A DNA stretch of 64,000 bases from Arenimonas composti TR7-09 = DSM 18010 (GTDB lineage: Bacteria; Pseudomonadota; Gammaproteobacteria; Xanthomonadales; Xanthomonadaceae). The DNA lies in NCBI RefSeq assembly GCF_000426365.1, contig NZ_AUFF01000001.1, positions 248,001-312,000 on the forward strand. The letters are read 5' to 3'. Shown here in pieces: positions 12,264 to 57,388 of this stretch (its first letter is position 1; each line of letters opens with the position of its first letter). The translations under genes were made by a program, and so were the position numbers. The notes under the pieces were generated by a model. That model saw only the letters and a program-made list of their open reading frames with translations. It was not told the origin of the DNA and searched no databases.

Positions 12264-15333
<3,070 letters not shown>

Positions 15334-40327: not shown

Positions 40328-41542
40328 TCAAAGCCCCAGCAGCATCCGATGCGGGTTCTCGAGCTGGTTCTTGATGTCGACCAGGAACAGCACCGCGTCC
40401 TTGCCGTCGATGATGCGGTGGTCGTAGCTCAGCGCGATGTACATCATCGGCGCGATCACGACCTGGCCGTTCTCGGCGATCGGGCGCTCCTTGATGGCGT
40501 GCATGCCCAGGATCGCCGACTGCGGCGGGTTGACGATCGGCGTCGACATCAGCGAGCCGAAGGTGCCGCCATTGGTGATGGTGAACGTGCCGCCCTGCAG
40601 GTCCTCGAGCTTCAGGCCGCCTTCGCGCGCCTGCTTCGCGTAACCGGCGATCGCGCCTTCGACGTCGGCGAAGCTCATGTTCTCGACGTTGCGCAGCACC
40701 GGCGTCACCAGGCCCTTGTCGGTCGCGACCGCGATCGAGATGTCGGCATAGCCGTGGTAGATCACGTCGTTGCCGTCGACCGAGGCGTTGACGATCGGGA
40801 ACTTCTGCAGCGCGTTCGCGGCGGCCTTGGCGAAGAAGCTCATGAAGCCGAGCTTGATGCCGTGCGACTTCTCGAAGCCCTCGCCGAGCTCCTTGCGCAT
40901 CGCCATGACCTTCCCGAGGTTGACCTCGTTGAACGAGGTCAGCATCGCGATCGAGTTCTTCGACTGCATCATCCGCTCGGCGATGCGCTGGCGGATGCGC
41001 GTCATCGGCACGCGCTGCTCGGGACGGGCGCCGCCGCCGACCTTGATGTGGTTGACGATGTCTTCCTTGGTCACGCGGCCGCCGCGGCCGGTGCCGGCGA
41101 CATCGGCCGGGTTCACGTCGTTGCGGGCGGCGTGCGCGGCGGCGCCGGGCGGCAGGCCGGCAGGCGCCGCCGAAGAACCCGCTGTAGGAGCGGCCGTAGG
41201 AGCGGCCGTAGGAGCGGCTTTAGCCGCGATGCTTCCCCCCGCCGCCGGAGCATTCGCGCCTGAAGGCGCTCCTACAGAAGCAGGGGCGGGGGCGGCGGCG
41301 ACCGCGCCTTCCTCGATGACCGCCACGACCTGCTGGCTGGTGACGGTGTCACCGGCCTGGAACTTCAGTTCCTTCAGCACGCCGTCGACCGGCGAGGGCA
41401 CTTCCAGCACCACCTTGTCGGTCTCGAGGTCGAGCAGGTTCTCGTCGCGGCGCACGGCGTCGCCGACCTTCTTGTGCCAGCTGGCGATGACGGCGTCGGA
41501 CACGGATTCCGGCAGGACCGGGACTTTGACTTCGATGCTCAT
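40328..41542 (-). CDS. sucB: 2-oxoglutarate dehydrogenase E2, dihydrolipoyl succinyltransferase
   Basis: The 404-residue E2 core transfers succinyl groups from E1 to CoA. The lipoyl domain (1-77) has lipoyl-Lys43 in [11 protein letters not shown] flexible linker (about 80-135), the E1/E3-binding domain ([18 protein letters not shown]) and the catalytic domain with His375/Asp379 ([12 protein letters not shown]) follow. Linker residues 89-122 are encoded by REP-like palindromes and read VGAPSGA...IAAKAAPT plus two more AAPT units. The gene begins 21 bases after sucA. Confidence 0.97.
41180..41278. repeat. REP-like palindromes inside the sucB linker
   Basis: At about 41183-41230 the unit GTAGGAGCGGC is present three times in tandem (two copies shortened to 12 bases), the last completed as TTTAGCCGCGAT. 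An inverted unit, CGCGCCTGAAGGCGCTCCTA, lies at about 41255-41274. The same repeat family is in ligA and after the DUF2058 gene. The reading frame is intact. Confidence 0.9.
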
Positions 41543-57363: not shown

Positions 57364-57388
57364 TGTGGGAGCGCCTTCAGGCGCGAGC
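57364..57388. repeat. REP-like palindrome between DUF2058 gene and metH
   Basis: TGTGGGAGCGCCTTCAGGCG plus CGAGC matches the REP family found in ligA and sucB. Here it has its usual position, in the 47-base gap between convergent genes, where it may act as a bidirectional terminator. Confidence 0.8.

Follow-up and report, generated by a model that had tools for sequence, protein, structure and literature searches.

REP elements of the GTAG super-family have been described (BMC Genomics 2013, PMC3733652), in the parts of that paper drawn on here, as large families with head-to-head pairs and a link to RAYT (REP-associated tyrosine transposase). The same parts report that some GTAG REPs lie inside the ORFs of DNA-repair and other genes, including a DNA ligase of O. 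terrae, that the REP TAG can serve as a stop codon, and that inserts are suggested to be tolerated in flexible linkers or loops; those parts hold no test of the reading frame or the encoded amino acids against a null, and 'lysobacter' gives no match in the paper. In the portions of the open-access literature consulted, including PMC3767692, PMC2229807 and PMC10969869, we found no frame test for REPs in print. GTAG REPs within genes have been published before, as have Rickettsia palindromes inserted in frame; the case presented here is a quantified one with a frame test.

The repeats analysed here come from a 64,000-nucleotide stretch of Arenimonas composti TR7-09 = DSM 18010 (the window), from the genome to which it belongs (G000) and from related genomes. 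They are ordinary GTAG-type REP elements, sharing with the super-family, as the cited parts of PMC3733652 describe it, the GTAG tag, the short palindrome, high copy number, pairing, a RAYT gene, intragenic units and TAG stops. The explanation that best accounts for the results, and which we consider likely, is that the intragenic copies are survivors in linkers or loops that have been filtered according to the peptide that they encode.

The repeat family and its insertions in sucB and ligA

The REP unit is 22 bp long and follows the pattern GTAGGAG-X4-TTCA-X4'-CGA, in which X4 is self-complementary and GTAG lies at one end of a short palindrome. The window has six matches to the REP 23-mer at up to 3 mismatches, versus 0.01 expected, and its genome (3.16 Mb) has 471 REP places at up to 2 mismatches, versus 0 for a reversed control pattern. 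Exact copies number 404 in G000 and 317 in G053, a genome of another genus, and exact-pattern copies are present in 73 of 248 genomes and 23 of 44 genera of a family-wide sample. The head-to-head pattern (12-42 nt spacers), which reads alike both ways, gave 69 matches per strand, some of which overlap. Among 97 clusters in G000, 32 lie between convergent genes, 2 between divergent genes, and 33 are co-directional or intragenic, with 30 unclear; in 27 of the 97 the TAG of the GTAG head is itself the stop codon of an adjoining coding frame. PMC3733652 describes the same habits for GTAG REPs.

There are five Y1_Tnp matches in the genome and REPs lie near one of them; REPs were not found within the 3.3-kb loci of the other four. 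The RAYT gene (Table 1) is flanked by three REPs on one side, the nearest overlapping the gene end, and by four on the other, within L137:1226-2034 (G000:C2 ~479703-480511). This arrangement makes it a candidate source element of the family, and the repeats have probably been spread by a RAYT encoded in the same genome.

Table 1. Coordinates of the features discussed; positions are those of the window unless another locus is named.
Feature	Position	Strand	Basis and remarks
sucB, dihydrolipoyllysine-residue succinyltransferase (2-oxoglutarate dehydrogenase E2), 404 aa, frame intact	40328..41542	-	Translation, TIGR01347, Pfam
GTAG-REP unit in sucB, stem CGCC, sucB orientation, GTAGGAGCGCCTTCAGGCGCGA; GTA GGA GCG CCT TCA GGC GCG = VGAPSGA	41254..41275	-	Motif match, translation
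Spacer of the sucB head-to-head REP pair, 24 nt, divisible by 3, without which the two units could not both be favoured	41230..41253	.	Frame analysis
GTAG-REP unit in sucB, stem CGGC, loop TTTA, oriented against sucB, GTAGGAGCGGCTTTAGCCGCGA; read in reverse as IAAKAAPT	41208..41229	+	Motif match, translation
Two tandem 12-bp REP-head copies in sucB, GTAGGAGCGGCC; read as AAPT AAPT	41184..41195 and 41196..41207	+	Exact matches
ligA, NAD-dependent DNA ligase, REP insert in the adenylation domain	12264..14537	-	Protein profile; start codon chosen by homology
GTAG-REP unit in ligA, VGAPSGA	14015..14036	-	Motif match, translation
GTAG-REP unit in ligA, IAAEAAPT	13963..13984	+	Motif match, translation
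GTAG-REP unit in ligA, IAAEAAPT	13924..13945	+	Motif match, translation
Intergenic REP copy, GTGG head, between convergent genes, an ordinary type of location	57365..57386	+	Contig position 305365; coding + to the left, - to the right
RAYT gene, 173 aa	L137:1321-1842 (G000, C2)	-	NF047646, 110.8 bits, cut-off 80

E2 components have Ala/Pro-rich interdomain linkers. SucB scores 552.6 bits against TIGR01347 (cut-off 378.65; NCBIfam profile scan) and contains Pfam lipoyl (residues 4-76), E3-binding (132-162) and catalytic (174-402) domains. A preliminary description, made from the letters of the window, had assigned residues 89-122 to REP-like DNA reading VGAPSGA, IAAKAAPT and repeated AAPT; this is confirmed at 41278-41177 on the minus strand, between the lipoyl and E3-binding domains, where the segment comprises two intact GTAG-REP units and a 12-bp REP head in two copies, the head having two exact matches in the window versus 0 expected. 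The REP-encoded stretch is predicted to be disordered: in an AlphaFold model built on an alignment of 40 SucB sequences, and modest as a whole (mean pLDDT 66.6, pTM 0.47), block-mean pLDDT is 87-93 over residues 1-80 versus 30-43 over residues 81-130, and secondary structure is absent between residues 79 and 131. The RNA structure of the sucB insert is ordinary (z -1.73; 12 of 200 shuffles equally low). The tandem head duplication at 41184-41207, which gives the in-frame AAPT repeat, is possibly a slippage-prone site.

The preliminary description also had VGAPSGA and IAAEAAPT in LigA in the frames used in SucB, and this too holds, with VGAPSGA present once and IAAEAAPT twice over 13924-14036. 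The net insertion of ~50 aa is flanked by residues that align with positions 160 and 164 of ligase chain 2owo (E. coli LigA). The anchored segment has 82 residues here versus 32-33 in 24 of 24 other genomes, the comparison covering genomes in which both anchors were found and leaving out the genus genomes G023 and G025. A housekeeping DNA ligase is thus shown to carry a 50-residue repeat insert. The sites had been characterised as linker-like, which stands for SucB and applies also to the inserts in Lpd, MetG and MazG, which lie in linkers; in contrast, the LigA insert lies in a loop, as probably do those in PurF, ABC-F and MurL.

Reading frames of the intragenic copies

Of the six frames in which a unit can be read, two carry stops (forward TAG, reverse TGA) and four are open, i.e. 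two per unit orientation. The open forward frames give VGAxSxA (Ala/Gly/Ser/Pro-rich) and CRSxFxRD (Cys/Arg/Phe), and the open reverse frames IAxExAPT (likewise Ala/Gly/Ser/Pro-rich) and SRLKxLL (Arg/Leu/Lys-rich). The first of each pair, i.e. the favoured frames, encode small flexible residues, and the alternatives encode Cys, Arg, Phe, Leu and Lys. For both units of a head-to-head pair to be read in favoured frames, the spacer must be a multiple of 3 nt.

Coding calls were made with a phased Markov model seeded with the codon-position GC order; its training set was the genes in the sequence retrieved around REP places. A cluster was called intragenic where a single stop-free frame had a coding score to its left and to its right, with the repeat itself unscored and scores limited to the ORF; clusters lying within 200 nt of the end of a stretch were excluded (10 in the survey with the Arenimonas model, 6 in other genera). 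The G000 survey took in 222 units of ~400-470, with the rest of the genome amounting to roughly 85%, and covered all listed exact places on C1 and, on C2-C5, mainly head-to-head pairs among the matches listed. For the null, intergenic clusters of the same genomes were placed in silico in six frames and the stop-free placements kept. Host genes were named from protein-profile scans, the Lpd of G009 being unscanned and named by homology. Two of ten G000 intragenic calls (C3:115069 and C5:5699) were 3-mismatch chance matches, with no units at <=2 mismatches, and vanish under the strict definition; clusters 334899 and 338557, which lie 5' of start codons, were dropped with ORF-limited scoring. Loose matching in linkers (up to 6 mismatches) was rejected, Ala-rich codons matching the favoured frame even in REP-free linkers; because such codons alone give loose matches, only strict-definition units were counted for Lpd and SucB.

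Thirteen intragenic clusters were obtained: eight in G000 (LigA, SucB, IcmF, Lpd, a methyltransferase, an ABC-F ATPase, MazG and PurF), three in G009 (Lpd, MetG and MurL), one in G003 (indolepyruvate oxidoreductase) and one in G053 (MetG). They contain 27 units, 26 of which are in favoured frames (25/26 in Arenimonas, counting the SucB tandem head as one degenerate unit, and 1/1 in G053); the stricter definition gives 25/26 overall and 24/25 in Arenimonas. All units are favoured in 12 of the 13 clusters, versus 5.1 expected under a size-matched null (P = 3.4e-5) or 5.4 without size matching (P = 1.6e-4). The sole exception is MurL of G009 (L291:2008-3462), in which one SRLKPLL unit lies beside a favoured VGAPSGA unit. 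The preliminary description anticipated that a genome-wide scan would show a frame bias beyond chance, and a scan of a portion of this genome and of related genomes bears this out. Its proposal of a single frame is right in that a favoured frame exists but has to be amended to one per orientation, i.e. V-G-A-x-S-x-A forward and I-A-x-E/K-x-A-P-T in reverse. All 9 spacers of intragenic head-to-head pairs are divisible by 3, as against 19 of 59 intergenic spacers in G000 (pooled over genomes, Fisher P 0.011); this test weighs mainly in G000, because the intergenic spacers of G003 (31/43), G009 (15/19) and G005 (13/21) are mostly multiples of 3.

Could so small a sample, in which related insertions may have been counted separately, have produced the preference by chance? 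There are only 13 clusters, Lpd and MetG each occur twice, and the null expectation for a cluster is 0.23 to 0.66. The Lpd (G000, G009) and MetG (G009, G053) clusters may indeed share ancestry. However, the eight G000 clusters lie in eight different genes and are all favoured, with nulls of 0.23 for seven and 0.49 for one, the product being ~1.7e-5. Strict units are also present in the Lpd linkers of 7 of 21 genomes (a further 4 of 25 loci were unreadable), with 11 of 11 units favoured, although these are not all independent and two of the seven genomes were already counted. We thus regard chance as a very unlikely cause, and the preference among survivors as non-random, with the proviso that the 13 clusters are not all demonstrably independent.

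Another reading is that frames have been misassigned or that the genes are decaying, such that the repeats are untranslated. Twelve clusters do have same-frame coding flanks with a stop inside (7 in the Arenimonas-model survey, 5 in other genera), but when read by eye each of them resembles a junction at which one gene stops and another begins, instead of a broken gene. Among the 12 scanned host proteins, 11 score above the NCBIfam curated cut-off, with the methyltransferase passing only that of Pfam, and ligA is the sole match in the genome at E <= 1e-60. Misassignment or decay is, in our assessment, extremely improbable; open frames and intact protein families suggest that the REP inserts would be translated.

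Depletion within genes and the cause of the preference

The preliminary description had expected an excess of in-frame coding REPs. None was observed: with the flank-scoring coding model, intragenic clusters make up 8/97 in G000, 3/40 in G009, 1/60 in G003, 0/31 in G005 and 0/3 in G001, and in other genera 1/100 (G053), 0/26, 0/5 and 0/5, whereas ~89% of the surveyed C1 bases are called coding. The G053 MetG cluster is intragenic under the coding model of G053 itself; under the Arenimonas model the count there is 0/99. Intragenic REPs appear rarer in G053 than in G000 (1/100 and 8/97, with 317 and 404 exact copies, respectively), the two having been sampled differently. The rarity of REPs within genes therefore points to a filter on survivors, not to preferential insertion, and it is in the former sense only that the proposed portable coding module can be retained.

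We propose that RAYT-driven insertion would leave REP copies mostly settled between genes, and that copies landing inside genes would mostly be lost because they break the protein. A copy or head-to-head pair would survive inside a gene where it leaves the frame unshifted, brings no stop into that frame and encodes a peptide that does no harm at a site able to tolerate it. Purifying selection on the encoded peptide would then be the filter that keeps the Ala/Gly/Ser/Pro-rich frame. Nearly all examined intragenic copies are in the linker-like frame, and such repeats can therefore leave translated footprints when the peptide is harmless.

A mechanical bias is an alternative: if the transposase preferred a target, for instance C[CT], that is tied to a single codon phase, new copies would enter in the favoured frame with the peptide unselected. 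A target preference may exist, because in G000 the base at -2 is C for 81% of the 190 exact intergenic units and for all 18 exact intragenic ones, with -1 mostly C or T; reverse units have [AG]G as the equivalent flank, and it is most frequent, by a small margin, in the favoured phase (18282 versus 17441 and 14399). In G000 coding sequence, however, C[CT] is found least often before codon position 1, which corresponds to the favoured forward frame (16143 versus 22676 and 21877), and CC[CT] is lower still (1665 versus 4831 and 7358). A mechanical bias thus predicts the opposite of what is observed for forward units and almost no preference between the two open reverse frames, and we consider it improbable. 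The favoured frames also match the codon usage least well (mean log w -1.94 to -2.10 versus -1.16 to -1.70). Because codon usage predicts the opposite and the phase of the flanking bases fails to explain the bias, selection on the peptide is the simplest remaining cause.

The histories of the SucB and Lpd linkers bear on whether that selection might be more than purifying. SucB units at 0-2 mismatches are present in G000, G010 and G021 (one unit only in the last); those of G010 are decayed, with 2 mismatches each, and G020 has a decayed pair with 3 and 4, the decayed units of both genomes having been left out of the frame statistics. Strict units are present in 2 of 86 distinct SucB stretches. 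Arenimonas-named records have SucB 81-89% identical to that of the window, and in the SucB of its nearest relatives by identity no REP unit was found. A bare REP-head match in the SucB of L114 was not counted. In a 24-genome tree with weak deep branches, the SucB carriers G000, G010, G020 and G021 fall in about three places, G010 and G021 being in a weak clade with G019, and G014, which has an Lpd REP, lies beside G005, which is without one. These positions suggest that REP gains or losses have been recent in places, as far as the weak deep branches allow. The Lpd linkers carry stems CGGC, CGCC and GGAC, the last read as VGGTSVP and IGTEVPPT, and the Lpd of G023 has the same REP peptides. The Lpd REPs may reflect several separate insertions, or a single old insert whose stem was later replaced.

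The preliminary description suggested that the insertion may be neutral or useful, and an adaptive reading would hold that REP-encoded Ala/Pro linkers have been co-opted, improving E2, Lpd or MetG, with the repeat family a useful source of linkers. The same linkers have been struck in several genomes by different stem types, the SucB carriers are scattered in the tree, and this reading gains some support because Ala/Pro-rich linkers matter in E2 proteins. With each stem seen, the REP sequence (GTAGGAG-stem-TTCA-stem) has an open frame rich in Ala, Gly and Pro whichever way it is oriented. REP-free relatives, however, have Ala/Pro-rich SucB and Lpd linkers anyway, without recognisable REPs, the LigA insert falls where relatives have a segment of fixed length, REPs are depleted in genes, and neutral tolerance accounts for the same data. 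We thus consider co-option unlikely. It is similarly unlikely that REP/RAYT constitutes a standing source of flexible linker peptide, with some E2, Lpd and MetG inserts positively selected and a selfish repeat partly kept for its peptide. Filtering of survivors by the harmlessness of their peptide is the reading that we prefer.

Some neighbouring sequences may have other origins. The Lpd linkers of L438 (G008; ...SPPGRGTEGEG...PLPRGEG) and L445 (G004; PSPRPSPARGEG) resemble translations of another repeat family, and in the IcmF of G000 (L173:1584-5495) the segments NRGQSPFPSGDAANGSRFGEMGSDPI and ACGERRSGLPDRRKPTFQWERR, beside the REP array, may derive from other repeats.

Relation to known elements

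The results make testable how a 'non-coding' repeat enters proteins. Four of the six frames are open, yet survivors use essentially two of them, contrary to codon preference, and in this way selection on the peptide can be told apart from mere avoidance of stops. The linkers of Lpd, MetG and SucB carry such inserts in more than one genome, that of MetG in two genera (G009 and G053). With respect to annotation, such REP peptides in proteins of Lysobacteraceae should be annotated as REP footprints and not mistaken for conserved motifs.

The Ala/Pro-rich linkers of E2 proteins are similar in composition to the SucB and Lpd linkers of REP-free relatives, but those are ordinary coding sequence, whereas the linkers described here are in part repeat DNA. 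MITEs (ERIC/RU, Correia) fused in frame to ORFs, as reported in the parts of PMC2229807 drawn on here, likewise place a small mobile sequence in a protein, though they belong to another class of element. Other relevant elements are the palindromic elements of Wolbachia and those of Rickettsia (RPEs). The RPEs, in the parts of the literature consulted, are ~100-150 bp long and occur in AT-rich obligate intracellular bacteria, whereas the units described here are 22 bp long, GC-rich and accompanied by a RAYT in the genome; on the basis of size they are set apart from RPEs. In its behaviour the REP unit nonetheless works like an RPE, being inserted in frame in conserved genes, absent from the LigA of the 24 other genomes compared and from the SucB of the nearest relatives by identity, and read in a preferred frame.
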